A stretch of 28,012 bases of DNA from a virus. The stretch is taken from IMG/VR virus record IMGVR_UViG_3300033141_001915, positions 1-28,012 of that record, one strand, 5' to 3'. The notes below the pieces were generated by a model. It ran no database searches. It was not told where the DNA came from and saw only the letters and a list, made by a program, of their open reading frames with translations. Both the position numbers and the translations under genes were made by a program. Shown here piece by piece: positions 14,074 through 25,873 of the stretch. How positions within the stretch are numbered: position 1 is the stretch's first letter; every line of letters begins with the position of its first letter.

Positions 14074-15618
14074 TTAAAATATAGCTTCTGAAACTCCTGC
14101 TGTAATAGGCTTGTCTTTATCTCCTTTAGTTTCTTGGAAATGACCCGCCTGTTTTGCTGGAAAATGGTTAATGAAGAAGTACCGCACCATATCAGGTCCA
14201 TTATCGTTCTTTTTAGCTGGTTCGTCAAGAATAGTGCCGTCTGTACGCACTTTATTAGCGTATGTTTTCATTTCTTTAATCGTCTTTTTACATCTTGGGT
14301 CAAAGATAAGCATATTATCTTGTAAGGCTTTCCTAACAAGAGGTATTCCATTCATAACCTTTCTTGCATCAGCATCTGCCATGGCTTCAACCCTAAATCC
14401 CGCTCTTCTTCTTAATTCTATTTTAGAGGGTTCTTCAATTGGGCAATACCAGACACTAACGGCCTGATTCAATAACCTTCTTAATTCAGCATCTGTTCTT
14501 GGTCGGTCTTTATATCTATCAGGAATAAAACCATGCTCTATTATCTTGTCCTCAACCATCGTAATAATATCGCTGTCTGTTTTGCCCTCTACCCATATTT
14601 CATCTTTCATCTCTGCTAGCCCAGAAGGTTTAACCTGCCAAAAACCAACAACATTGGCGTGTCCCTCTGCAAACCCAAAGTCTTCTGATAAATACAGCTC
14701 AGCGCCGGTATCAAATTTTGTTTTCTTAACATGAAACGCTTCATTAAACTGCGGATATACCAAGGCTTTTTGAGATGGCCTTTTACACATCCATTGAGAT
14801 TCCCAAGTATCTTTATCCAGCCTTAACTTAGTAGCGATGACATCTTCTAGCTTCAAGTATCCGCTGCACTCTAAACACCTGCCCTGACAATCCTCGGCAA
14901 ATACTGATTTCCTGCATACCTCGGGATCGTGTTTCTCGACCGTTTCCATTACACACCATCTGTAAACCTTAAATCCCCTTTCTTCTGCTTCATCCAAAAG
15001 CCTTTCCATTGGCCCAAATGCAAACTTTCTGGTAGAAGTGAGAATTAGCTGCCCAACGATATCTCTTCTGGATTGTGGCATAGAAAACGCCTCTTGAATA
15101 ATATTCCACATCATCAATTCAACCTCGTCTAAAAATGTTTTCTGAGGATGAGGAGAGTTAACGCCAGACATTGTCCCAGTAAGAATTTGCACCATTGAGC
15201 CGTTTGTAAACTTCGTTTCTCGCATTAGCGAATCCATCACCCTTTCATTAAATATTGCAATATTATTAATGAAGTTTTGAAAATATCCGTAACATTTCTT
15301 GGCCTGCTCTTCAATTGCTCCCACCGTTGCCGTTTCGCAATCTGGCCAGTAATAAGAATTAAGAACGTCTAATATAGCGAAATCTGTTGTCTTGCCACCT
15401 GTTCTATTAGCTAAAGCAATAGCATTCTGAACCTTCTGAAAAAACACGTCCGCAACAAAGTCAAAAGGTGCATCATGATGTGGACAAACTGCTTTACGAG
15501 GAATAGCTATACCGAAATTATCATGAATATATTCCCATAATCCGTCTTTGTCTTGATCTTTAAAAATTAACTCCAGTACTTGAAACGCATCCTTGCTATC
15601 CTTAATTAGTTTTGCCAT
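14074..15618 (-). CDS. terL: Terminase large subunit (ATPase-nuclease)
   Basis: The 514-residue motor packages DNA into the prohead. The ATPase part shows a Walker A-like ANRTGGKTT (70-78), a Walker B with catalytic acid TFLDEVE (D164, E165) and the coupling motif LTSTRK (193-198). The nuclease half opens with YLSEDFGFAEGHANVVGF (D313) and has a later D476 in NGPDMVRY. Between them residues 235-251 carry C235, C244, C248 and C251 (CQGRCLEC), a possible zinc knuckle that is not part of the core terminase fold. The start ATG 15618 overlaps the small-subunit gene by 17 bases, so the pair is probably coupled. Confidence 0.93.
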   Translation of the reverse strand: MAKLIKDSKDAFQVLELIFKDQDKDGLWEYIHDNFGIAIPRKAVCPHHDAPFDFVADVFFQKVQNAIALANRTGGKTTDFAILDVLNSYYWPDCETATVGAIEEQAKKCYGYFQNFINNIAIFNERVMDSLMRETKFTNGSMVQILTGTMSGVNSPHPQKTFLDEVELMMWNIIQEAFSMPQSRRDIVGQLILTSTRKFAFGPMERLLDEAEERGFKVYRWCVMETVEKHDPEVCRKSVFAEDCQGRCLECSGYLKLEDVIATKLRLDKDTWESQWMCKRPSQKALVYPQFNEAFHVKKTKFDTGAELYLSEDFGFAEGHANVVGFWQVKPSGLAEMKDEIWVEGKTDSDIITMVEDKIIEHGFIPDRYKDRPRTDAELRRLLNQAVSVWYCPIEEPSKIELRRRAGFRVEAMADADARKVMNGIPLVRKALQDNMLIFDPRCKKTIKEMKTYANKVRTDGTILDEPAKKNDNGPDMVRYFFINHFPAKQAGHFQETKGDKDKPITAGVSEAIF

Positions 15619-16009
15619 AAGCTTTTTTAATCTTATTCTTCAACCACTTTTCCACGCCGGGCATTGATACCTCGATTGGCTTATTGCCTTTGCCTGCATG
15701 TTCAAATCTTTCCTTGTAAATGCTTGGTTTATAACTCTTTAAAGCAAATATAATCGCGGTAATATTTCCCTCGCTAATCAATGTTCTTAATCTATACTCC
15801 GCTTCTTGAACGATTAATCTTCTACCTTTCTTTACTGCTTCCTTCCACTTTTTCCTGAAAACAGCATCTTTCTTTCTATATTTATAGACAGTTTGTCTGC
15901 TAACATTAATCATGCTGCAAGCAACAAGAACATTGCCTGCTGCTTTCTTAGAACGAAGCGCTTTTAGAAACTCCTTTTTTATAGTGTCACTTTTGTTATC
16001 TCTTCCCAC
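15602..16009 (-). CDS. terS: Terminase small subunit with N-terminal helix-turn-helix
   Basis: The 135-residue protein has an N-terminal DNA-binding helix-turn-helix (AACSMINVSRQTVYKYRK region, about residues 27-45), a following helical oligomerisation part (AEYRLRTLISEGNITAIIFA), and a tail that would meet the large subunit. Small terminases bind the packaging start site and regulate the motor. The start is a GTG supported by AAGGAGG four bases ahead; no ATG begins the frame. It overlaps the methyltransferase gene upstream by 31 bases and the large subunit downstream by 17, an unusually tight chain. Confidence 0.85.
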   Translation of the reverse strand: MGRDNKSDTIKKEFLKALRSKKAAGNVLVACSMINVSRQTVYKYRKKDAVFRKKWKEAVKKGRRLIVQEAEYRLRTLISEGNITAIIFALKSYKPSIYKERFEHAGKGNKPIEVSMPGVEKWLKNKIKKAYGKTN

Positions 16010-17220
16010 TGCTCCTCCTTTCCTATAAATCTAGCATATCGTTTTCTGATTACATCGCAATATAGTGGATCTAGCTCTATCATATAACACTTCCTTTTTA
16101 ACTGCTCGCAAGCTATCAATGTTGAGCCTGATCCACCGAACATATCTAAAACAATATCTCCTATTTTTGATGACTTTTTTATTGCCCTTTCGGCTAATCT
16201 AACGGGTTTCTGAGTTGGATGCTCATATTCGAATATTGAATCTCTTTTTTCGTACCATAAATCAATTAACTGCTGTAAATCATCGTAATTTACAATATCT
16301 CTAAAATTACTAAACATTTTATTAGCATATACTTTTTTGCCTTTTTTCCACCCATATAGACAAGGTTCAAATGTCCTAGAAAAACCCTGAGGTTGAGGAA
16401 AATTGGGAAAATCTTTAACCCATATAATAGTTTGTGAGAACCTCCACCCTGCTTCCTTTAGTGCTAATCTCAAGATCTCGTGATATCTCATGTTGTACCA
16501 ACAATAAAAAGCTGCCTCGTCAACACTAAAAGAATAACCATTTACAAAACAATCTCTAATGAAATCAGAGTACTCTTTATCTGTTTTCTTATCACTAAAA
16601 AAACGGTGTTTAACCTTTTTACCTCCATGTAATTCTTCTCTCCAGTCATATGAGTAATCTATATTGTAAGGTGGATCAGTAAATATCATATTGGCTTTTT
16701 CCTTATCAAATAACTTTTTATAGACTTCTATTTTTGTGGAATCGCCACATATTAATTTATGATTGCCCAATCTGTACACCTCGCCAAGTTTAGACCTAGC
16801 TTTATCTCCCGGCTCTATCAAATCATCTTCCTTAATTGGCTTAGATAATTTGTCTAATTCCTCTGAAACAAACCCTACGTCCCTTAACAAATTCTCATCG
16901 AAATTAGCAAGCATATCCCAATCCCAATGTCCCAAGTTTTTATTTAATCTCAAGTTTAACTCTCTTTCTTTTTCAATATCTGGGATATCTACATAAACTA
17001 CAGGCATTGTTTTATTGCCTAATTCTTTCCAAAGATAAAATCTTTGATGTCCACCGATTATTACATTTTCTCTGCCCTTGGCTTTGTTAACAACAATAGG
17101 CTCAACCATCCCAAATCGCTCTAATGAGGTTTTTAAATCCTTTGCCTCTTTTTTGGTTAAAGCTCTGGGGTTATATTCTGCTGGTTTTAAGTCTGATATT
17201 TTAACTTGTATTACTTTCAT
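15979..17220 (-). CDS. ParB-like domain fused to beta-class adenine/cytosine DNA methyltransferase
   Basis: The 413-residue protein has a ParB/Srx-type domain (residues 3-78: LKPAEYNPRALTKKE, VIIGGHQRFYLWKELG) followed by a methyltransferase. Motif IV is DPPY at 182-185 (TDPPYNIDYS), then a target region, HPTQKPV (334-340), and motif I LDMFGGSGSTLIA (358-370), in the beta-class order. A DPPY motif most often marks N6-adenine methylation, though N4-cytosine is possible. No restriction enzyme lies beside it, so it is likely an orphan that shields phage DNA or marks it. Fusions of this kind are common in phages. It precedes the terminase genes directly. Confidence 0.9.
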   Translation of the reverse strand: MKVIQVKISDLKPAEYNPRALTKKEAKDLKTSLERFGMVEPIVVNKAKGRENVIIGGHQRFYLWKELGNKTMPVVYVDIPDIEKERELNLRLNKNLGHWDWDMLANFDENLLRDVGFVSEELDKLSKPIKEDDLIEPGDKARSKLGEVYRLGNHKLICGDSTKIEVYKKLFDKEKANMIFTDPPYNIDYSYDWREELHGGKKVKHRFFSDKKTDKEYSDFIRDCFVNGYSFSVDEAAFYCWYNMRYHEILRLALKEAGWRFSQTIIWVKDFPNFPQPQGFSRTFEPCLYGWKKGKKVYANKMFSNFRDIVNYDDLQQLIDLWYEKRDSIFEYEHPTQKPVRLAERAIKKSSKIGDIVLDMFGGSGSTLIACEQLKRKCYMIELDPLYCDVIRKRYARFIGKEEQWEEITKVTL

Positions 17221-17896
17221 ATGCTTTCTCTGCTTGGTGCTTTTTGATACTTAATATTTTATCATCTGCCATCGCTTGATAATCTCCATATCCTACAATC
17301 TTTTCTCCTAAATGTCCTACTAAGGTTGATGTGTCGCAGAATATATTAAAACCCATTTTCTTGGCTTTTTGGCAAAAACTGATGTCCTCTCCTCGGAATC
17401 CTACATTATCAAAGAATCCCCATATATCTTTGTGCTTTTGAACAAACCCTTTCATTTTTTTAAATACTTTCATATCAATTAAGGTTGCCGCCATTCCTAT
17501 CGCATCACATTCAACCAATTCATTTGGCTTCCACATATAAATGGGAACGTATGATTCGGTTTTTGCATGATAAGTAAAGAATGATGGCTCGTGAGGCTCA
17601 GTTCTAATAAATGTTAATCCCCCGACAATTTGTTTCTTGGTTCTTAGAAGTCTGCACAGAGCATCCGGCTGAAACACCATATCGTCGTCCATAAAAAACA
17701 AATAATCTGCATCGGTTTCTTTCAGCGCTTTTGAGGCAATCTTGTTTCTGGCAAAAGTTATGTTGTCTCTATACGTGGCAATCCTGTCTACCTTAATACC
17801 TTGGCTTAGTGAATAAACAGTAAGGCTTATCAAACTATTTACAAATCTGGTGTGTATTCTCTCCGTTTGATGTGGTAATCCTAATACTACTCTCAT
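17201..17896 (-). CDS. Glycosyltransferase, family 2-like (GT-A)
   Basis: The 231-residue protein has the phage-type GT-A pattern: an N-terminal strand (MRVVLGLPHQTERIHTRFVN), an acceptor-side segment with RDNITFARNKIASKAL, and the metal-binding DXD as FFMDDDMVFQP (69-73). Later conserved parts are IVGGLTFIRT and FRGEDISFCQKAKKMGFNIF. The family transfers a sugar from a nucleotide donor to a glycan or protein. The start overlaps the sulfotransferase stop by four bases (ATGA). It is the last gene of the glycan island, and the methyltransferase gene follows. Donor and acceptor cannot be read from sequence. Confidence 0.82.
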   Translation of the reverse strand: MRVVLGLPHQTERIHTRFVNSLISLTVYSLSQGIKVDRIATYRDNITFARNKIASKALKETDADYLFFMDDDMVFQPDALCRLLRTKKQIVGGLTFIRTEPHEPSFFTYHAKTESYVPIYMWKPNELVECDAIGMAATLIDMKVFKKMKGFVQKHKDIWGFFDNVGFRGEDISFCQKAKKMGFNIFCDTSTLVGHLGEKIVGYGDYQAMADDKILSIKKHQAEKAYESNTS

Positions 17897-18426
17897 AATT
17901 CTACAAACTTCTTAATATGCTTAATTATCTTTCTATTATAGTAATCTACTAACTTTCTTGTTTCTTTTTCTTTAAAGAGCCTGTTTCTTCTCATTAAGCT
18001 CGCCACAACCTTTTTGGGTTTTCTAAAACAGCAATATAAATAAACATCATCGTCTTCCTTAAAATACTTGCTTAATTCCTGAAAAGTAATTGCCGTTCTC
18101 GGATCTTTAAATCCCCAGAAATGAGATTTTGGTGTCATAAGCTCCTTAATCTTTTTTGATAAAGACTTACCAACCCTCGCCATTTTTTCCTCGCTAGGGG
18201 GGTTGTCCCAGTATCCCCCGGCCCTATGTATTAGTTCATTGTTTACTTCTCCTATTTCTCTCGATTCAAAAAAGCACTTTATATCATCTGCATTATTTAC
18301 TCCCATATCCACACCCTGATCGTATAGTGCTTTTGCCAAAAAGGTCGTCCCAGAACGATGCATGCCCAAAACAACATAGATTTTTTGGCTATTATCGGCT
18401 ATTAAATTTTTTCTAATTTTGCTCAT
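17893..18426 (-). CDS. Small sulfotransferase-family protein
   Basis: The 177-residue protein begins with a P-loop-like 5'-phosphosulfate site: VVLGMHRSGTTFLAKALY (residues 18-35), the usual signature of PAPS-dependent sulfotransferases. A KDPRTAITF segment and a CCFRKPKKVVASLMRRN segment follow, matching the family's 3'-phosphate-binding region. At 177 residues it is shorter than most family members (usually 250-300 residues), so it may be a minimal form or have lost part of its substrate side. It would add sulfate to a sugar or protein, in line with its neighbours. The start is ATG 18426, and its end overlaps the next gene. Confidence 0.72.
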   Translation of the reverse strand: MSKIRKNLIADNSQKIYVVLGMHRSGTTFLAKALYDQGVDMGVNNADDIKCFFESREIGEVNNELIHRAGGYWDNPPSEEKMARVGKSLSKKIKELMTPKSHFWGFKDPRTAITFQELSKYFKEDDDVYLYCCFRKPKKVVASLMRRNRLFKEKETRKLVDYYNRKIIKHIKKFVEL

Positions 18427-18551
18427 ATTTTCCGCATTTTTTGCGTTAATTTACCCTCTCCCCTACCCCACTCCTCCACTCTATAATATTAAATTTCAAA
18501 CCTGTATTGCCTCTCCCCTACTCCCTAAATAGGGAGGTCTGTTCATATTTT
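18427..18551. repeat. 125-base gap with 12-base direct repeat and a hairpin
   Basis: This is the largest gap in the glycan island. CCTCTCCCCTAC occurs at 18455-18466 and again at 18510-18521, and CTCCCTAAATAGGGAG (18521-18536) can fold into a 7-bp hairpin. No U-run follows on the minus transcript, so it is not a simple terminator. Pyrimidine-rich plus-strand sequence is dense here, so part of the similarity may reflect composition. It may mark a junction between added gene cassettes; that is inference. Confidence 0.4.
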
Positions 18552-19394
18552 TTACCCATTTTTCTTTATTTTCTGCTCTTTTTTTCGCTCTTTTTCTATC
18601 CGTTTCCAAGGATCAAAACCGTGCTTTTTAATAAAAATCTTCCTATTTTCCTCTAACATTTTCATATAATCAGCTCCGTGCTCTATCCATGTACTCCTGT
18701 GATAATGATGAACGTAAGTGTCCTTTCTTAAAATAAGCTTCCACCCCGCCTCTCTGGCTCTTAAGCAGTAGTCATCGTCATCAAACAATCCCAAATTAAA
18801 ATCTTCATCTAGTCTTCCGATCTCCTTAACCATCTTTGTTCTGAACCCAGCACAATAAAAGGCTAGAAAATCCACCTCTTTTTCCATGCCCGCAAGGTTT
18901 GTTTTTAGTGTGTTTGCCCATCGTTCAATTGTCTCCCTAATATTTAAATACCTTAACTTCTTTTCTATCATTATCTTCGCTCCCGGCAAGCTGCGCCAAT
19001 TAGGGGGTGATGATATCGGCCCAACTATTCCAACTCTATCCTTTTTAAGGGATTGCAAAAGCCTAAAGTCCCATCCGCTTGTAACAATTACGTCATTATT
19101 TAAAACAAAAAAGTAATTGAGCTTCTGTTTTAATACTTCATCTATTCCCTCATTAACCGCCTTAATAAATCCTACCGGTTTCTCTGTATATGAAAAATAA
19201 AAATGGCTTTCGTTATCAAAATGCTCACAAAGCCAATCGAATATCCTGTCGCTTTCGTCTAGGATTGACCCGTTATCTATTACAATAAAATAAAAATCCT
19301 CTAAATTAGAACAAGCTTTAATGCTTTCAAACAAATTAAGAGTCATCCACGAAAGGTTGTAGCAAGGGATTATAAGTCCTATTCTCTTTTTCAT
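18552..19394 (-). CDS. Glycosyltransferase family 2 protein
   Basis: The 280-residue protein has a GT2 N terminus (RIGLIIPCYNLSWMTLNLFE), the metal-binding acid site FFVLNNDVIVTSGWD (95-109), and an acceptor-side helix pair near GRLDEDFNLGLFDDDDYCLR (C-terminal catalytic region) ending HHYHRSTW. That order matches rhamnosyl/galactosyl-type GT2 enzymes. The C terminus is basic, ending KERKKEQKIKKNG. Its ATG overlaps the stop of a 45-residue ORF as ATGA, and upstream bases form a slippery run that could join the two frames. No transmembrane segment is seen, so it is probably cytoplasmic. Confidence 0.88.
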   Translation of the reverse strand: MKKRIGLIIPCYNLSWMTLNLFESIKACSNLEDFYFIVIDNGSILDESDRIFDWLCEHFDNESHFYFSYTEKPVGFIKAVNEGIDEVLKQKLNYFFVLNNDVIVTSGWDFRLLQSLKKDRVGIVGPISSPPNWRSLPGAKIMIEKKLRYLNIRETIERWANTLKTNLAGMEKEVDFLAFYCAGFRTKMVKEIGRLDEDFNLGLFDDDDYCLRAREAGWKLILRKDTYVHHYHRSTWIEHGADYMKMLEENRKIFIKKHGFDPWKRIEKERKKEQKIKKNG

Positions 19395-19528
19395 TTTTTT
19401 AAAAAATTTCTAATCACATATTCATCAATTATGTCAATTGCACGAAAAGAATACTCGTCTATCCCCATTGTGCCTGCGATTTTTTTTGCTTTTCTTACTA
19501 TTTTCCTCCATTCTTTTTCTTTATTCAT
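19391..19528 (-). CDS. Small unknown ORF between two glycosyltransferases
   Basis: A 45-residue ORF begins at ATG 19528 (MNKEKEWRKIVRKAKKIAGT), whose bases overlap the stop of the upstream glycosyltransferase. The frame is open further upstream only from a GTG inside that gene. It is basic and helical, ending EYVIRNFLKK. Its last codons form T_TTT_TTA followed by A_AAA_AAA and then TGA, and the next glycosyltransferase begins in the -1 frame. It may be a separate small protein or an N-terminal extension made by slippage. The function is unknown. Confidence 0.55.
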   Translation of the reverse strand: MNKEKEWRKIVRKAKKIAGTMGIDEYSFRAIDIIDEYVIRNFLKK

Positions 19529-20192
19529 TTTGTCTAAATATTTTAGGCAATTCGCTTTTAGGCCTAACTCCACCACCCGGCATTAAATATATTGAATCCC
19601 TGCCAAATCCGAAATTTACTACAACATCTTCTTTGGGTATTAATGACTTATACCCTTGAGATTGGACATATATCTGCCATCCATCATCTTCTAGTGCAAC
19701 CCCGTATTTGTCAAACAATATTCTCTTAAATCCATATCCTGAATTAACAAAATCCTTTACCACGAAACAATCTTTGCGTTCTTCCAGTTTAACAAATCTT
19801 TCATCAGTTGAGACATAGTTAAGATAATCAAACAATCCGACACACCCAGCGTCCTTATTGTTCTCAATAATATTAATCACTTTCTCTAACCATCCCAGTT
19901 TAAATTCTAAATCTGAATCCAGCTTGAAGATATAGTCTCCATTTGAAACTCCAATGCAATTTCTGAAAGCCCTGCCTACACCCATGTTCTGACCAGCATT
20001 GAGAATTAAATGACTAATGTGTCCTGAAAAAAATTGCTCTGTTAAATAAGAGCTTACGTGCTGATTCATCGAGGCATCGTCGTTCACTATTAACTCATAA
20101 GGATATCGGGTATTTCTTTTTAATGACTCTAGTGAACGAATTAAAAAGTCTGGTCTTTCAAAAGACAATAAACACAAACTCGCAAATCGCAT
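19521..20192 (-). CDS. Glycosyltransferase family 2 protein
   Basis: The 223-residue protein starts with a GT-A fold (FASLCLLSFERPDFLIRSLE), has LIVNDDASMN near residues 34-43, then IGVSNGDYIFKLDSDLEFKL, where DSD is the metal-binding motif. A C-terminal part with EDDGWQIYVQSQGYKSLIPK fits the acceptor side. It is shorter than many GT2 proteins but complete in frame. It begins two bases before the RRM gene ends, and its stop overlaps the small ORF. The donor sugar is unknown. Confidence 0.85.
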   Translation of the reverse strand: MRFASLCLLSFERPDFLIRSLESLKRNTRYPYELIVNDDASMNQHVSSYLTEQFFSGHISHLILNAGQNMGVGRAFRNCIGVSNGDYIFKLDSDLEFKLGWLEKVINIIENNKDAGCVGLFDYLNYVSTDERFVKLEERKDCFVVKDFVNSGYGFKRILFDKYGVALEDDGWQIYVQSQGYKSLIPKEDVVVNFGFGRDSIYLMPGGGVRPKSELPKIFRQNE

Positions 20193-20194
20193 AT

Positions 20195-20464
20195 TTAATA
20201 TCTCCTTTTTTCTTTTGACTTTGGTGGCCGAGCTTCTTTAACAACAATATTTCTTCGATTTAGAGCAACCCCATTAAACCGCTCTATTGCTTTCTTTGCA
20301 TCCTCTGGGTTTTTAAAAGTAACAAACCCAAATCCTTTTGATCTCCTTGTTTCTCTATCAGTAATAACAATTGCATCTATAACCTCGCCTATTTCGGAGA
20401 AAATCTCTCTCAATTGGCCTGTGGTAACTCCCCACTCAAGATTGCCTATATAGAGCCTATTCAA
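20195..20464 (-). CDS. RRM-domain RNA-binding protein
   Basis: The 89-residue protein is one RNA recognition motif. RNP2 is LYIGNL (4-9), RNP1 is KGFGFVTF (43-50), and a long basic tail ends KEARPPKSKEKRRY. The segment GQLREIFSEIGEV fits the first helix and IVITDRETRRSKGFG the usual run into RNP1. Such single-RRM proteins occur in cyanobacteria and in Patescibacteria and some other bacteria, where they bind single-stranded RNA; they are rare in phages. The start is TTG with AAAGGGGTGA just ahead, and a stop lies three codons upstream in frame, so no ATG alternative exists. It sits inside the glycan island. Confidence 0.9.
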   Translation of the reverse strand: MNRLYIGNLEWGVTTGQLREIFSEIGEVIDAIVITDRETRRSKGFGFVTFKNPEDAKKAIERFNGVALNRRNIVVKEARPPKSKEKRRY

Positions 20465-20480
20465 TTCTAATCACCCCTTT

Positions 20481-21131
20481 CTAGTATCCTGTAACTTTCC
20501 TGTATAGCCCAGCAAAGGCCGGTTGGCCAACTTTGCCTTGATAACTAACCCAACCATATCTCAATCCGTCTTTGCGAAAAGTTAATTCATGCACCGTTTC
20601 AAAATCTTCATCAATTAAATTATGAAACCAGAACTCATCTATGTTTTTGAGATGTGCCGGGTGTCGGTGGATTGAAGCCAAATCTATTGTATTATGAATT
20701 GCCAACCATCCCCCGGCCCTTAATACTCTTTTGATTTCAAATATCACTATCTCAGGCGACTGACAATGGTCGAGTGCGTTAGTGATAACAACCACATCAA
20801 CCTCCCCGTTGGAAAAAGGAATAGACTCGCCAACGCCTTTTAAATGATAAGCACAGGGCCAATACTTCTTATACTCATCTGTTAAGGGATCTAAAATAAC
20901 TTTTCTCTTACAATGTAAATCTGCTATTATCCCTATCGGTCCACCCCCTATTTCGAGTACAAACTTATTAGTAAGATCAATTAGATTTAATCCCATCTCC
21001 TTGCGCATTTTTGGATAGCGGGCAATCTCTCTCTCTATTTTTTCCCTACGTTTTTCAGGATCTCTAATTAACCAAGAGTCGGCCTCCGCCTTTTGTGCCT
21101 CATTCCAGCTTAAATTTTTATTGTTATCCAT
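20481..21131 (-). CDS. SAM-dependent methyltransferase, class I
   Basis: The 216-residue protein carries a Rossmann-type SAM site: motif I VLEIGGGPIGII (58-69), an acidic end of strand 2 near VILDPLTD, a motif with ESIPFSNGEVDVVVITNALD (102-121), and VLRAGGWLAIHNTI. This order is class I (Methyltransf_11-like). It likely methylates a sugar, lipid or small acceptor, in line with its neighbours; the substrate cannot be read. An N-terminal helical region (about residues 10-50) precedes the fold. Its start overlaps the epimerase stop by eight bases. Confidence 0.83.
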   Translation of the reverse strand: MDNNKNLSWNEAQKAEADSWLIRDPEKRREKIEREIARYPKMRKEMGLNLIDLTNKFVLEIGGGPIGIIADLHCKRKVILDPLTDEYKKYWPCAYHLKGVGESIPFSNGEVDVVVITNALDHCQSPEIVIFEIKRVLRAGGWLAIHNTIDLASIHRHPAHLKNIDEFWFHNLIDEDFETVHELTFRKDGLRYGWVSYQGKVGQPAFAGLYRKVTGY

Positions 21132-22224
21132 TCCTCTCCCTCTCTTGACAATACCTGTCGTAAATCTTCTTTATCCCCTCTCTTGGGGATATCTTAGGCT
21201 CCCACCCAAGAATTCTTTTAACCTTTGAAATATCGCTAATATAAACCCTCTGATCCGCTGGTCTCCAATCATGATATTCTATCTCAGCCTTTTTACCTGA
21301 TATTTTTTCTATATATTCAACAGCCTCAATTAGGCTCATTGTATTCTCGGGACCACCGCCAATATTAAATATTTGTCCTTTTACTTTTTCCATGCTCTCT
21401 AGCTCGTCTAGATAAAGCCTAGCAACGTCTTCTCCCCATAACATATCCCTAACCTGCTTACCGTCTCCAAAGAAGTTTAGCTTGCCATTCCCGAAGGCTA
21501 TCCTCCTAATGAAATGGTCAATCCATCCCTGATCCTGAACCCCTTTTTGATAATAGCCATAGATACAGCTCATTCTGTTTATTACTACCGGGATTTCAAA
21601 AGCATGAAAATATTCCTGACAATATAAATCTCCCGCTAATTTAGAAGTTCCATAAGGTGAGTGATGATATTTACCAAAGCCATCAAGAGGAAAAGTTTCG
21701 TTTATCCCCTTTTTAGTTACCCCACCAATCCATAGAGGGCGGGGCTTCCCCGCAATATATTTAAATACCATTAAATCTAATAAGTTCCACTCATATCGTT
21801 TTTCTTTCTCCTCTAAAGGAATTTCATTTATCAAATCTGTATAAACCTTATTCGTTGATGCATAAATTACCGGAATTTTTTTATTCATCTGCACCCCCAT
21901 TACCCTCGCATACTCAAGAACATTTAAAGTTCCTTGAGCATTAACTTGAAAATCATAAACAGGCCACCTTATCGACCAAGGAATGCCCGGATTTCCAGCC
22001 AAATGAATAATTGCATCAGGTACAGGTGACCGATGGAAATCAACCATCTGCCTTACATCTCCTCTTAAAATCTCTACACCAGCCTCTTGAAGTATCGGAA
22101 TGTTTTCCTCTGACTTAGGCCGGATAAAGGAGTCCATTGCTATAACTTTGTATCCCCTTTTTATTGCCTCAAGACAAATATTAGTTCCTATAAATCCTGC
22201 CCCGCCCGTAATTAAGATGGTCAT
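21124..22224 (-). CDS. NAD-dependent epimerase, CDP-paratose/tyvelose 2-epimerase-like
   Basis: The 366-residue enzyme is an extended short-chain dehydrogenase. The cofactor site is GGAGFIG (7-13). Catalytic residues appear as the ASTNKVY strand (S123/T124) and Y191-x-x-x-K195 in SPYGTSKLAG. The segment VVINRMSCIYGYYQ and QDQGWIDHFIRR (230-241) closely follows the pattern of CDP-paratose 2-epimerase, which makes CDP-tyvelose, a 3,6-dideoxyhexose of O-antigens. Exact substrate is inferred and could be another nucleotide sugar. The other enzymes of dideoxyhexose synthesis are absent, so the host may supply CDP-paratose. It sits between two methyltransferase genes. Confidence 0.82.
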   Translation of the reverse strand: MTILITGGAGFIGTNICLEAIKRGYKVIAMDSFIRPKSEENIPILQEAGVEILRGDVRQMVDFHRSPVPDAIIHLAGNPGIPWSIRWPVYDFQVNAQGTLNVLEYARVMGVQMNKKIPVIYASTNKVYTDLINEIPLEEKEKRYEWNLLDLMVFKYIAGKPRPLWIGGVTKKGINETFPLDGFGKYHHSPYGTSKLAGDLYCQEYFHAFEIPVVINRMSCIYGYYQKGVQDQGWIDHFIRRIAFGNGKLNFFGDGKQVRDMLWGEDVARLYLDELESMEKVKGQIFNIGGGPENTMSLIEAVEYIEKISGKKAEIEYHDWRPADQRVYISDISKVKRILGWEPKISPREGIKKIYDRYCQERERNG

Positions 22225-22232
22225 AATTTAAC

Positions 22233-22748
22233 TTAACTACTTTTAACAACCCTGTCAATAGCCACCTCAACATAGTCAAATCGTCCATTTCTTTTGTTAG
22301 GATACATATCTACTAATATGTGTTCTTTGTGCGGTGTTTCTAACACGCAAACGTGCCAAAATCCTTTTAAGTATCCATGTGGATCTATTCTTTCAGAATT
22401 GCCGGGAACTTGGAAAAATCCAAAAGTATCTTCAACAAATTGTATTTTATGGTCAGGATTTATATAGTAAGCGTGTGTTCCTGCTTTTGGCACCTCAATA
22501 TGAATATGTCCCTTAGGCTTTAAAACTCGCCAACACTCCTCGATACAATGAAATAGTTCGTGGGGGTAAAAATGCTCAAATAGATGTAGTGCCCTTATTA
22601 TATCCACAGAATCATTTTTAAAGGGCAGCGGATCTTTTCCTAAATCCAAAACATAATCTACTCCCTTAAACTTCCTTATATCTATTCCAATATATCCCTT
22701 AGGCTTCCTCTTTCCACACCCTAAATCAACCCTAACTATTTTGCTCAT
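22233..22748 (-). CDS. SAM-dependent methyltransferase, small class I
   Basis: The preferred start is ATG 22748, giving 171 residues; the frame is also open to a GTG 12 bases upstream. The ATG overlaps the TGA of the upstream glycosyltransferase, and GGGGGTG lies a few bases ahead. The SAM site is VRVDLGCGKRKPKGYIGIDI (6-25), with DPLPFKNDSVDIIRALHLFE and a WRVLKPKGHIHIEVP segment. This is the short methyltransferase type common in sugar-modification clusters. An acceptor sugar is likely; the exact target is unknown. Confidence 0.83.
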   Translation of the reverse strand: MSKIVRVDLGCGKRKPKGYIGIDIRKFKGVDYVLDLGKDPLPFKNDSVDIIRALHLFEHFYPHELFHCIEECWRVLKPKGHIHIEVPKAGTHAYYINPDHKIQFVEDTFGFFQVPGNSERIDPHGYLKGFWHVCVLETPHKEHILVDMYPNKRNGRFDYVEVAIDRVVKSS

Positions 22749-23461
22749 ATCACCCCCCACGCCCTTCCTTTGTTTGCTATCATAGATTTATTTTTTTCAT
22801 ATAATAAAGACTCGTTAGCATCTCCAATTGCTTCTTTTGGGGGTCTAGGATGCCATTGATGAAGTGCCTCTAGCTCATCTACAACAACATGCTCACATCC
22901 ATTTAGTCTTAGCCTGTGCATTAAATCATTATCGTCATTTCCCCAGTATTTAAACCTTTCATCCCACCCGCCAATGTCAAACAATTCTTGTCGCATTACT
23001 CCCCCTATATATGGAGCCATCGAGTGGGGTATAAAACTAAAAACCTTTTTATTCAGAAAAAATAGCTCCACCGTTTGGTTGATGTTTTTACTAAGATACA
23101 TTGATCCCGGCACGATAAATTGTTTTGGATTTTTCTGGAGCATTTCCCTCATCTTTGTAATACAAGGAGATATGTGATAAACCTCCGGATCGCTTATAAT
23201 AATAATCGGATTTCTGGAAATCTTTAATGCTATGTTTTTAGCCTTACACCCGCTTCGGTATCTTTTGTTTCCTGTACTTACATATCTCCATTTGATAGAA
23301 TATCCTTTTAAAACCTCTTTAATTCCATCATATTCGCCATCATCAACCACACAAAGCTCGTCTCCATTAATAAGCTGGGGAACAATAGACTTTATTGACT
23401 CTTTAAATAAGTGAGCTTTCCTGAAATTTGTAACACAAACGCTAACATTTATCTCTCCCAT
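22745..23461 (-). CDS. Glycosyltransferase family 2 protein
   Basis: I place the start at ATG 23461, giving 238 residues (MGEINVSVCVTNFRKAH). GGGAGGTG lies eight bases ahead, while the longer open frame begins with a TTG. The GT-A opening (NVSVCVTNFRKAHLFKESIK), the ELCVVDDG acid turn and the AKNIALKISRNPIIIISDPE segment fit GT2. The C-terminal part (GWDERFKYWGNDDNDLMHRL) resembles the acceptor domain of polymerising or galactosyl-type enzymes. It overlaps the upstream glycosyltransferase by 13 bases and the methyltransferase by four. Donor and acceptor are not known. Confidence 0.84.
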   Translation of the reverse strand: MGEINVSVCVTNFRKAHLFKESIKSIVPQLINGDELCVVDDGEYDGIKEVLKGYSIKWRYVSTGNKRYRSGCKAKNIALKISRNPIIIISDPEVYHISPCITKMREMLQKNPKQFIVPGSMYLSKNINQTVELFFLNKKVFSFIPHSMAPYIGGVMRQELFDIGGWDERFKYWGNDDNDLMHRLRLNGCEHVVVDELEALHQWHPRPPKEAIGDANESLLYEKNKSMIANKGRAWGVI

Positions 23462-24339
23462 TCTGGCGGCACCTCCCAATCAATGCCCATCCTTTTATAC
23501 ATTTCTTTTGTCTTCTGAATAATCCCTAAATCTGGGTTAACCTTTCCAAAATGTTTCATATTAAGTCTCTCTATCTGCAATTTTAGGTTTGGGGGAAACC
23601 TACTCGGCGGTATTTCGTGCCAGATATGATATCCAATGCACCTTTTATCATAAGAAAACTTTACATCATTTTTCCAAAGCCTAATTCCAAATTCTCCGTC
23701 TTCCAATCCACAATATGTTTCCTCATCGTATCCACCAGCTTTCCAAAAAATCTTTCTAGGTATCAACAGATTGCCGCCAAAACAAGCAAGCCCATCATAA
23801 ATTTCATTATAAATATCTTCGGGAGATCCCTTATCAAAAGATGCCATTCTCACATCTTGTCCAATGTGCCCAATTCTTCCTAAAGGGGAAAACCTCTCTA
23901 GTTTACCCAACACTACGTCGTCAAATCTCTCCTCTATGTCTCTGGGAGTTACTTTCTGGGGCGGCAGCCAATTATAAGGACCTATTACAACACGATCCTT
24001 GTCTTTCTGATAATCTTCCCAGTAATATTGCAAAGCCTCGCAATTAAGAACAATATCAGAATCAAGAAATAAATAAACATCTGTTGCCTGCTCGGCCATT
24101 TTCGCTCCATAATTTCTTGGCCTTGAGGCATTCCACGCAATCTTTTTATAAATCCACGCATACTTAAGCGAGAATTCATTCTTAAAAATGTCCACCAGTT
24201 CATAAGTTTTATCATCAGATCCATCATCTACAACAATAACCTCAAATTTGTCTTTTGGTAAACTCTGTATCTTTAGGGCAGTTAAAGCTAACTCAACATT
24301 TTTCTTGCGATTGTGGCACGGTATTATGATTGAAATCAT
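23449..24339 (-). CDS. Glycosyltransferase family 2 protein
   Basis: This 296-residue protein is the most typical GT2 here. It opens MISIIIPCHNRKKNVELALT, has IVVDDGSDDKTYELV, and carries the DXD as FLDSDIVL (91-98). A second domain, with GNLLIPRKIFWKAGGYDEET and GLEDGEFGIRLWKNDV, is the C-terminal GT-A/galactosyltransferase-like part. It ends with a Pro-rich tail (DWEVPPEWER). The start overlaps the HNH gene stop by four bases. Activity is likely intact, as both acid motifs are present. Confidence 0.9.
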   Translation of the reverse strand: MISIIIPCHNRKKNVELALTALKIQSLPKDKFEVIVVDDGSDDKTYELVDIFKNEFSLKYAWIYKKIAWNASRPRNYGAKMAEQATDVYLFLDSDIVLNCEALQYYWEDYQKDKDRVVIGPYNWLPPQKVTPRDIEERFDDVVLGKLERFSPLGRIGHIGQDVRMASFDKGSPEDIYNEIYDGLACFGGNLLIPRKIFWKAGGYDEETYCGLEDGEFGIRLWKNDVKFSYDKRCIGYHIWHEIPPSRFPPNLKLQIERLNMKHFGKVNPDLGIIQKTKEMYKRMGIDWEVPPEWER

Positions 24340-24761
24340 TTGAGCAATTCCTTCAGCTTTTTTCTATACAACAACTCTATTTGTTTTTTGTTTATTTTAC
24401 AGGTAGTTTTAGATCTAACTACAAGATTTTCAAAGGCTTCCTTTCCAATCATTGACTCAAAAAAACTATATTTTTCTAATGGATGTCTGTCTAAATATGA
24501 ATGGCAACCATAACAACCCGCAATCGCATTAAGGGGATCAAACCTAACAGCACTTCCTCTCCTTGAAAAACAATGCATTGCATGTAATCCGGCCGCATTC
24601 CTATACCTGTCTTCATATTGAGGAAGTTTATCAATTAATCGCTTAGGTGGCCTAAAAACGGATCTTCTTCCCAATGTAATACACCTTTGACATTCCCACC
24701 CATCCCTTGTGCGAATGTAATCACTAAAAGCCTGATCCGCGGGATTTATTTTAATACTCAT
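24336..24761 (-). CDS. HNH/NinG-like zinc-binding protein
   Basis: The 141-residue protein has a first zinc pair CQRC (24-27), then a histidine-rich HNH-like core GLHAMHCFSRRGSAVRFDPL (58-77), an asparagine in PLNAIAGCYGCHSYL, and the second pair C83-x-x-C86-H87. The spacing fits the HNH fold and the small phage proteins related to lambda NinG, which act in recombination of phage DNA. Nuclease activity is plausible, though the exact catalytic His cannot be fixed by eye. It sits between two glycosyltransferase genes, with ATGA overlaps on both sides, so it shares their transcript. Confidence 0.75.
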   Translation of the reverse strand: MSIKINPADQAFSDYIRTRDGWECQRCITLGRRSVFRPPKRLIDKLPQYEDRYRNAAGLHAMHCFSRRGSAVRFDPLNAIAGCYGCHSYLDRHPLEKYSFFESMIGKEAFENLVVRSKTTCKINKKQIELLYRKKLKELLK

Positions 24762-25504
24762 ATAGACTGATAAGTTAAAACCTTAAATATCCTGCCGGTA
24801 TAGTGCCATTTCGCAATCCATAAGTTATAGTTTTGATCCTCGTGCCCAAAACGATCTTCCTCCTTGCTTCCCGCAAAATAGTGCCCACACTCCGCCGAAG
24901 GTTCGTATATAATCCGCCCTCCTCTTTCTAAAACCCTTAAACAAAAATCTACATCTTCCCATCCGTTAATAAAGCTTTCATCAAATCCTCCTATCTCTAA
25001 AAACTTATCTCTTCTAACTAGCATACAAGCCCCGGTAACCGCCGGTACAATTTGTCTCTTATTAACGCTTATATCGTTTCTCTTTCGTGTTCTGCCAAAT
25101 TCAAATGGCTTAAATTCTTTAGTAAATTGAATACCTGCATGCTGAATCCTATCTTTAATTCCAAAGATATGCCGTACCTCGTTTTGGAAAATCACGTGCT
25201 TTATAACATTCTTTAAAAAATAAATTTTAGCTCCTACCACCCACACCTCTTGACTAGAGTCCAACACCCTCTCCATATTCTCAAACATATCTTTATGAGG
25301 AACCGTGTCGTTATTTAAAAAAAGCACATAAGGAGTTTTAGCCTGCTTTGCTCCCAAATTATTATTTTCTGCAAAAGTCCTCTTTTTCTTGGGATCACAA
25401 ACAATAATCTTTTCTTTAGGAATTTTATATTTCTTGAGGATTTTCAATAAATCGCTAATCCAAGGATCTCCGGGATAAGTTGAAATTATTATCGTTGTAT
25501 TCAT
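24758..25504 (-). CDS. Glycosyltransferase family 2 protein
   Basis: The 248-residue protein has an N-terminal GT-A pattern (TTIIISTYPGDPWISDLLK), AENNNLGAKQAKTPYVLFLN with the metal-binding acid in LNNDTVPH, and the C-terminal PAVTGACMLVRRDKFLEIGG and GWEDVDFCLRVLERGGRIIY that mark GT2 enzymes related to rhamnosyltransferases. A final His-containing region (CGHYFAGSKEEDRFGHEDQN) completes the acceptor side. It is the first gene of the glycan island in the direction of transcription and begins one base after the membrane-protein gene ends. Its stop is an ATGA overlap with the HNH gene. Confidence 0.88.
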   Translation of the reverse strand: MNTTIIISTYPGDPWISDLLKILKKYKIPKEKIIVCDPKKKRTFAENNNLGAKQAKTPYVLFLNNDTVPHKDMFENMERVLDSSQEVWVVGAKIYFLKNVIKHVIFQNEVRHIFGIKDRIQHAGIQFTKEFKPFEFGRTRKRNDISVNKRQIVPAVTGACMLVRRDKFLEIGGFDESFINGWEDVDFCLRVLERGGRIIYEPSAECGHYFAGSKEEDRFGHEDQNYNLWIAKWHYTGRIFKVLTYQSI

Positions 25505-25873
25505 CTAATTATCTAAAAAAATATCCGATTTTTTTCGTCCAACCCTTCCTGCATTGGCTATTATAAGCTGTCTTAGTATGATATATTTCATTAATCTTTC
25601 TAAGTTCTTAATCGCCTGATCCTCTTGGTATTTTGTTTGCTTTTGTGGTCTTCTAAATAAGTTCCAAATAACCCGATAAATCTCGGCAGGAATTCCTATA
25701 CCCAAAATAATTACAGTCCCTATACAAGCCAAAAATGTTGAAATTGTGCCCAATATCAAAAACTGCAATAAAAATCCTATGATTAATCCCAAGGTTCTCA
25801 AAAGTTCCAATGAAATCAAGACTGTGTTTTTCCAAAGACTAACTATATTTTGACAGGTATTCTTAAATATCAT
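25505..25873 (-). CDS. Small membrane protein of unknown function
   Basis: The 122-residue protein has a hydrophobic part at about residues 17-70 that can hold two helices (LRTLGLIIGFLLQFLILGTI and FLACIGTVIILGIGIP). A basic cytoplasmic-type tail follows (RRPQKQTKYQEDQ to GRKKSDIFLDN). Two-helix membrane proteins next to sugar-transfer genes are sometimes flippase or anchor subunits (for instance GtrA-like, though that family usually has four helices), so I do not assign it. It could also be a holin. It stands between the small zinc protein and the first glycosyltransferase. Confidence 0.7.
   Translation of the reverse strand: MIFKNTCQNIVSLWKNTVLISLELLRTLGLIIGFLLQFLILGTISTFLACIGTVIILGIGIPAEIYRVIWNLFRRPQKQTKYQEDQAIKNLERLMKYIILRQLIIANAGRVGRKKSDIFLDN

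Follow-up and report, generated by a model that had tools for sequence, protein, structure and literature searches.

Gene content of the locus

The window analysed, a 28-kb stretch of DNA, is a fragment of the incomplete genome of a tailed phage whose source microbe is uncultivated. Profile searches matched TerS, TerL, portal, protease, major head, connector and tail PHROGs within it, and the phage context of the locus described here is solid. The window yielded neither a tRNA nor an Rfam match, and no strong repeats were present; a search of cultured phages for near-identity to it gave no match. Its minus strand carries, at 17201-25504, an island of six GT2s, two SAM methyltransferases, an epimerase, a sulfotransferase-like protein, an RRM protein and a NinG/HNH protein, with ORFs and coordinates that match those of an initial annotation made from the sequence alone. 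The features are, in the order of transcription:

24758..25504 (-), GT_F, GT2-type glycosyltransferase, 248 aa (PF13641 5e-13; PF00535 36.7 bits; NND and WEDVD acidic motifs)
24336..24761 (-), NinG/Rap-like HNH protein, 141 aa (phrog_5034 7e-16)
23449..24339 (-), GT_E, GT2-type glycosyltransferase, 296 aa (PF00535 67.6 bits; DSD motif)
22745..23479 (-), GT_D, GT2-type glycosyltransferase, 244 aa (PF00535 50.7 bits; PF02709; D-P-E replaces DxD; C-terminal GNDDND)
22233..22760 (-), MT2, SAM methyltransferase (PF08241 34 bits)
21124..22224 (-), EPIM, NDP-sugar epimerase nearest CDP-tyvelose/paratose 2-epimerase (best PDB match 9rl0/1orr)
20481..21131 (-), MT1, SAM methyltransferase (PF08241 39 bits)
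20195..20464 (-), RRM RNA-binding protein, 89 aa (PF00076, RRM_1, about 82 bits (81.9))
19521..20192 (-), GT_C, GT2-type glycosyltransferase (PF00535 66.3 bits)
18552..19394 (-), GT_B, GT2/rhamnosyltransferase-like glycosyltransferase (PF00535 49.3 bits; TIGR01556 1.6e-9)
17893..18426 (-), SULF, short PAPS-sulfotransferase-like protein, 177 aa (motifs; 31% to L054 sulfotransferase; under the Pfam cut-off)
17201..17896 (-), GT_A, small phage-type GT2, 231 aa (PF00535 23.4 bits; phrog_1574/12406; DDD motif)
15979..17220 (-), flanking, no glycan gene: ParB-like N-terminal domain and N6/N4 DNA methyltransferase (PF02195, PF01555; phrog_498 7e-113)
14074..16009 (-), start of the packaging/head module: TerS (15602-16009) and TerL (14074-15618) (phrog_4044, phrog_5653 and others)

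The island genes overlap or are separated by tiny gaps, the exception being a 125-nt gap at 18427-18551. The island runs unbroken into the DNA-methylase-TerS-TerL genes on the same strand, where GT_A, DNA methylase, TerS and TerL each overlap the next. Terminator-like sites were not in excess, and those on the minus strand fall within genes.

Conservation in related phages

Most of the island is present in an 81%-identical phage (L012), ahead of TerS-TerL-portal, and a 62% phage (L004) has the GT_B-SULF-GT_A end immediately ahead of TerS-TerL, with no DNA methylase in between; the SULF-GT_A end was seen again in a second assembly. A distant phage contig from a bacterial bin (G085:C39; CAIJKW010000039.1) preserves the order of eight island genes, whose products are 30-57% identical. 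Its island is without SULF, GT_A, GT_B and RRM, includes additional UDP-glucose dehydrogenase-like, UDP-glucuronate decarboxylase-like and RmlA-like genes, and adjoins a CHAP lysin, not terminase. Comparison of neighbourhoods, as the initial annotation had proposed, thus showed that island genes recur in related phages beside terminase or in the same order. Misassembly or a host-chromosomal origin had been considered there as well: an assembly accident is ruled out because parts of the island recur in the second assembly and in several related phages, and the block has a single match among bacterial bins, where the contig concerned is a phage genome. The central claim, that of a phage-borne glycan-modification island, is supported, with the gene set, coordinates and phage context confirmed.

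In a phage of 59% identity the terminase genes are the same but no glycosyltransferase lies upstream of them, which gives the island the look of a modular cassette that was acquired. The ratio dN/dS was 0.05-0.09 in the enzymes where it was measurable and 0.05 in TerL; the island genes tested are under purifying selection. These observations bear on the view that the block is passive, horizontally acquired cargo, for instance travelling with HNH elements, and has no coherent function. The interspersed HNH genes, which differ between relatives, and the absence of glycosyltransferases at the site in the 59% phage would fit that view, whereas the gene order kept in the distant phage, selection on the enzymes as strong as on TerL, and intact motifs make it very improbable.

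Predicted activities of the island enzymes

The profile searches placed the GT2s, methyltransferases and RRM protein above their Pfam cut-offs and the sulfotransferase-like protein below. Five GT2s clearly passed the PF00535 cut-off of 23.3 bits (36.7-67.6 bits) and GT_A barely did (23.4 bits). GT_A also matches a phage glycosyltransferase family (phrog_12406, 4e-12) and an unnamed one (phrog_1574, 2.5e-25), and is homologous to gp11 of phage Baka, annotated as a glycosyltransferase (28%, 2e-15), and to a glycosyltransferase of MW202711; its predicted structure had a pLDDT of about 49, too low to be informative, from shallow alignments (3-4 sequences). Homologues were found for GT_B in L012 (77%) and L004 (60%, partial), for GT_D in L012 (69%) and L137 (30%), for GT_E in L137 (38%, 6e-60) and for GT_F at the matching place in L137 (31%, 3e-32), and the LDxD motif of GT_C is kept in L012 and L137. 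The acidic motifs described initially as intact are indeed so, and the catalytic motifs are conserved across relatives. None of the island enzymes has a membrane segment, and all look soluble.

Both methyltransferases pass the Methyltransf_11 profile; MT1 is 86% identical in L012 and about 50% in L137, and MT2 shares its SAM motif LGCG and FEHFYP with both. The RRM gene occupies the same position in L012 (57% identical), and a homologue of the HNH protein opens the L137 island (33%). The best solved relatives of EPIM are CDP-tyvelose 2-epimerases (7e-63, then 1e-57), the next best family following at 1e-33, and its GGAGFIG and Y191-x3-K195 motifs are invariant in three phages. The nearest characterised relatives and the SDR catalytic motifs bear out the earlier CDP-paratose-2-epimerase-like call: assignment to the CDP-tyvelose/paratose 2-epimerase family is right at family level, and use of a CDP-sugar is predicted. 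No CDP-sugar pathway genes were seen in the fragment. A compensated frameshift in EPIM (residues about 147-172) was considered and rejected, as no other frame matches L012.

The weakest call in the island is SULF, which scored 14 bits against PF13469 (cut-off 27; E 0.06) and is therefore called sulfotransferase-like rather than a PF13469 member; its L012 homologue reached E 0.004. SULF carries a PAPS-loop motif (GMHRSGTT) together with a 3'-loop-like motif, R-x7-S, and has homologues in L012, L003 and L004; R24-S25-G26-T27, R135 and S143 do not vary among four sequences. A protein of phage L054 that passes PF13469 shares 31% identity with SULF (E 2e-14). The predicted model of SULF (pLDDT about 49, likewise too low to be informative, 3-4 sequence alignment) retrieved only weak P-loop-kinase-type matches in a fold search. 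A PAPS sulfotransferase is plausible on these grounds; the PAPS-type assignment made initially is supported indirectly, by the motifs and the homology to a PF13469 member, and the profile cut-off was not reached.

Scanning bacterial genomes with TerL revealed no prophage and therefore yielded no host. Three of the four bacterial-bin relatives of EPIM are in Blackburnbacteria/Levyibacteriota bins; a host assignment from EPIM was dropped, the ribosomal L2 of the fourth bin being only 48-51% identical to that of the other three.

Similar cassettes in other phages

In Baka, the GT_A relative comes right after the major head gene and precedes kinase-MTase-GT-GT-GT; in MW202711 it is one gene beyond the major head gene; and in L054 (IMGVR_3300035698_032311; L054/L131) it also follows the major head gene, with an intervening homing-endonuclease-like ORF. 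TerL families were among the commonest matches for the neighbours of 59 viral GT_A genes. The L054 cassette, of roughly 16 kb between the major head and neck genes, encodes a sulfotransferase, an APS-kinase-sulfotransferase fusion, methyltransferases, an epimerase and an aminotransferase. It resembles the window island in combining GT_A, sulfotransferase, methyltransferases and epimerase in one head-module block, whereas L054 is unrelated to the window phage, has GT4-type glycosyltransferases and the APS-kinase-sulfotransferase fusion, and shows no synteny. The G085 phage has two glycan clusters, one between portal and protease and the other syntenic with the window island.

The mycobacteriophage cassettes (Corndog gp35-38; Baka gp11-16, gp20) likewise consist of small soluble glycosyltransferases and a methyltransferase in a structural operon; the window island differs in being larger, in its NDP-sugar epimerase and probable sulfotransferase and in its place before terminase. 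The likeness to Baka is one of genes (GT_A and gp11). Phage glycan cassettes are thus already known from a few phages, but one with so many enzymes, sulfation and methylation among their activities, is unusual; the initial figure of one to three such genes per phage is too low, since there are four in Corndog, about seven in Baka and about fifteen in L054. The literature searched contained no report of a phage-encoded sulfotransferase and glycosyltransferase with the virion. To our knowledge, phage virion glycosylation has been demonstrated mainly in actinobacteriophages.

Possible targets of the glycan

The proximity of GT_A to the DNA methylase and terminase could mean that the glycosyltransferases modify phage DNA to give hypermodified bases, as known for other phage glycosyltransferases (Pyle 2024, cited in PMC12619734). 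A DNA-methylase PHROG was also among the neighbours of GT_A relatives (8/93), and L012 has a C5-cytosine methylase at that place. The window methylase is, however, of the N6/N4 type, no hydroxymethylase is among the gene calls of the window, itself part of an incomplete genome, and TET/JBP matches were obtained in 0/16 records, in a search without a working positive control. Six sugar-polymer-type glycosyltransferases with sulfation and an NDP-sugar epimerase also go beyond the requirements of known DNA glycosylation, and we regard DNA as an improbable target.

Alternatively, the enzymes might change a polysaccharide of the host surface, or its precursor in the cytoplasm, while the phage infects the cell or persists as a lysogen, and so alter a receptor (superinfection exclusion) or adhesion. 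GT2s, epimerases and sulfotransferases are typical of surface-polysaccharide loci, relatives of EPIM occur near GT-like genes in Levyibacteriota bins, and 46 nucleotide-sugar genes in groundwater Patescibacteria phages were read by the authors as host-surface change (PMC12911398). GT_E resembles the GtrB-like phrog_841/22739 in the PHROG search, and its N-terminal half is locally about 29% similar to TarP, a soluble Staphylococcus prophage GT2 that acts on wall teichoic acid; TarP differs from the island in being a single gene with the host wall as target. The island shares phage-encoded GT2s with the gtrABC serotype-conversion cassettes and, unlike these, has no GtrA flippase, membrane-anchored GtrB or Gtr, and no adjoining integrase in the fragment. 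No GtrA/GtrB/Gtr-type membrane protein, initiating transferase, flippase or polymerase was found in the island-bearing phages, in whose scanned DNA the only multi-pass membrane proteins were tape measures or antisense ORFs, and the fragment lacks a lipid-carrier gene, an integrase and a lysogeny region. There is thus no specific support for superinfection exclusion by way of a host glycan, as put forward initially. Together with the position of the island beside terminase and of similar cassettes within head modules of unrelated phages, this makes the host surface a possible but rather doubtful target, though still the strongest competitor of the virion reading. Lysogeny or membrane genes may be missing because the genome is incomplete.

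The block is phage-borne, conserved and enzymatically coherent, and is probably a modular phage glycan-assembly cassette that heads the packaging/virion operon. Decoration of virion proteins, also named in the initial annotation, fits the genomic context better than the host-glycan alternative, and we give about even chances to a late-expressed module that glycosylates a virion protein. EPIM would adjust a CDP-sugar (or other NDP-sugar) supplied by the host, an oligosaccharide would be assembled on an acceptor in the cytoplasm by the soluble GT2s, and the methyltransferases and sulfotransferase would cap it with O-methyl and sulfate groups from SAM and host PAPS. The acceptor would most likely be at least one virion protein encoded in this late operon. 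In some mycobacteriophages, phage-encoded glycosyltransferases are reported to glycosylate subunits of the capsid and tail tube (Freeman 2023, as cited in PMC12619734), and the O-MTase and three GTs between portal and protease of Corndog were proposed by the authors to modify its capsid (PMC4351075). Such a glycan could shield the particle or alter its surface, with effects on stability, adsorption or evasion of binding proteins; this would also account for the swapping of accessory genes between relatives. Against virion decoration stand the position of the island before terminase, not between portal and capsid, and the existence of soluble phage glycosyltransferases, such as TarP, that act on host polymers. 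Compared with relatives for which no glycosyltransferase was found, the major head protein lacks a Ser/Thr-rich extension at its C-terminus.

More speculatively, and with rather low confidence, tailed phages of uncultivated, possibly Patescibacteria-type bacteria may wear a methylated, sulfated oligosaccharide that they build with exchangeable cassettes of the late operon, of which some (L054) would also supply the PAPS. If true, the recurrence of a conserved, multi-enzyme sulfating/methylating module beside the capsid/packaging genes of unrelated environmental phages would suggest that chemically complex phage coats are widespread. Many phage glycan genes now filed as host-surface auxiliary metabolic genes, and likewise some sulfate-activation genes such as the L054 APS-kinase fusion, may then serve the virus particle.

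Organization of the island

The virus record is linear (28,012 bases), and all genes called as real lie on its minus strand. In order of transcription, small regulatory-type genes are followed by the island, a DNA methylase, the terminase genes TerS and TerL and the portal, and then by the protease, the major head protein, connectors, the tape measure and tail proteins. The features discussed below are:

25505-25873, minus strand: 122-aa protein with two hydrophobic segments and no family match, immediately upstream of glycosyltransferase GT_F
25504-17201, minus strand: the island, with 12 recognisable genes and one 61-aa ORF
21124-22224, minus strand: epimerase (EPIM)
20195-20464, minus strand: RRM RNA-binding protein inside the island
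15979-17220, minus strand: ParB-like N-terminal domain, followed by an N6/N4-type DNA methylase

Island neighbours overlap or almost touch, with the single exception of a 125-nt gap that is the exact site of an HNH gene in the related phage L012. As GT_A, the methylase, TerS and TerL each overlap the next, the island continues into the packaging operon. The RRM protein, which has a counterpart at the equal position in L012 (57% identity), was matched in only 3 of 50,697 phage records.

The initial annotation had described six GT2-like glycosyltransferases with intact acidic metal motifs, and all six are GT2-type enzymes in which these motifs are indeed visible (GT_D with a D-P-E variant). The SAM motifs of the two methyltransferases are conserved. 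EPIM matches CDP-tyvelose 2-epimerase better than every other solved family, and its catalytic Y-x3-K and nucleotide-binding glycine motif are invariant across three phages. Its residues 147-172 (approximately) form a hypervariable loop within an otherwise 83% conserved protein; a frameshift was rejected as the cause, and the loop is possibly substrate-related. The weakest identity call is SULF, a probable sulfotransferase: it scores under the Pfam cut-off, but the residues of its P-loop and 3'-loop do not vary among four sequences, and it shares 31% identity with a protein of the unrelated uncultivated phage L054 (IMGVR_3300035698_032311) that passes Sulfotransfer_3. Structure predictions of SULF and GT_A were too poor to help with identities.

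Recurrence and selection

The stretch from SULF through portal is repeated in a second assembly, L003 (TerL and portal 100% identical), where GT_A and the DNA methylase read as one fused ORF (L003:561-2480), the frame in the region of overlap differing slightly from that of the window. L012 (TerL 81%) has most of the island in unchanged order at 57-86% identity, its exchanges comprising two additional methyltransferases, an HNH protein and a Fic/DOC-family protein between GT_C and GT_B (L012:4709-5227) that the window does not have. The ParB-like domain is 84% conserved there (L012:8293-9746), whereas the methylase that follows is a C5-cytosine type in a separate ORF. In L004/L005 (TerL 62%) GT_A lies immediately ahead of the terminase genes, L004 also having SULF and the end of GT_B. 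In L015 (TerL 59%), methylase-TerS-TerL is present and the 4.4 kb upstream contain no glycosyltransferase. Of 26 more distant TerL relatives, only 5 gave a PF00535 match, one of them above cut-off.

An epimerase scan of bacterial genomes recovered a distant copy on a 56-kb contig (CAIJKW010000039.1) that had been placed in the bin of a bacterium with a genome of roughly 1 Mb. The contig is a phage genome in its own right, encoding a portal, a protease, a major head protein, connector and tail proteins and a CHAP lysin. It shares NinG, GT_F, GT_E, GT_D, MT2, EPIM, MT1 and GT_C in window order, with extra genes interspersed and NinG and GT_F exchanged. It also has genes resembling UDP-glucose dehydrogenase, UDP-glucuronate decarboxylase and RmlA, so that this module can, judging from these likenesses, be partly self-sufficient for activated sugars. 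This phage also has a second glycan cluster in the portal-to-protease interval and, in the gene that adjoins portal at the terminase position, an intein containing a LAGLIDADG domain (L142:197-6745; L142:8725-11409).

Between the window and L012, dN/dS is 0.05-0.09 for the enzymes where computable (synonymous sites are saturated for SULF and GT_D) and 0.05 for TerL. Synteny and selection speak against passive cargo, which we disfavour. It is almost certain that the island is, as first proposed, a genuine phage-borne glycan module.

Comparable cassettes and the target of the module

In the unrelated phages Baka (a mycobacteriophage) and L054, a GT_A-family gene directly follows the major head gene; in MW202711 it lies one gene further away. 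In mycobacteriophage Corndog the portal-to-protease interval contains an O-methyltransferase together with three glycosyltransferases, for which its authors proposed capsid modification (PMC4351075), and glycans on mycobacteriophage capsid and tail tube subunits are reported (Freeman 2023, as cited in PMC12619734). The cassette of L054 (roughly 16 kb, head-to-neck interval) includes a sulfotransferase and a fusion of APS kinase with a sulfotransferase domain (L054:18992-20128), with which the phage may produce its own PAPS. In view of this fusion, APS-kinase matches in viromes may serve sulfation instead of sulfur assimilation. Two more GT_A paralogues adjoin tail-region genes of the same phage (L131:9290-10764).

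Because such cassettes sit in head modules, the island enzymes appear soluble and the island-bearing phages yielded no flippase, polymerase or Gtr-type membrane protein, we favour decoration of the virion, to which we give an even chance; this case is context, not proof, and no glycan acceptor was found (major head protein examined). Modification of the host surface, the reading used for nucleotide-sugar genes of groundwater Patescibacteria phages (PMC12911398), is possible but less likely. Some soluble phage glycosyltransferases are known to act on host polymers, and GT_E has similarity to TarP, a Staphylococcus prophage enzyme acting on wall teichoic acid. DNA modification is improbable, as no base-hydroxylating enzyme was seen in this incomplete genome, in a search without positive control.

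Glycan cassettes in phage head modules are already known. This one stands out by its size, by the added CDP-sugar-type epimerase and probable sulfotransferase, and by the evidence of such modules recurring, recombining and moving from one phage lineage to another.
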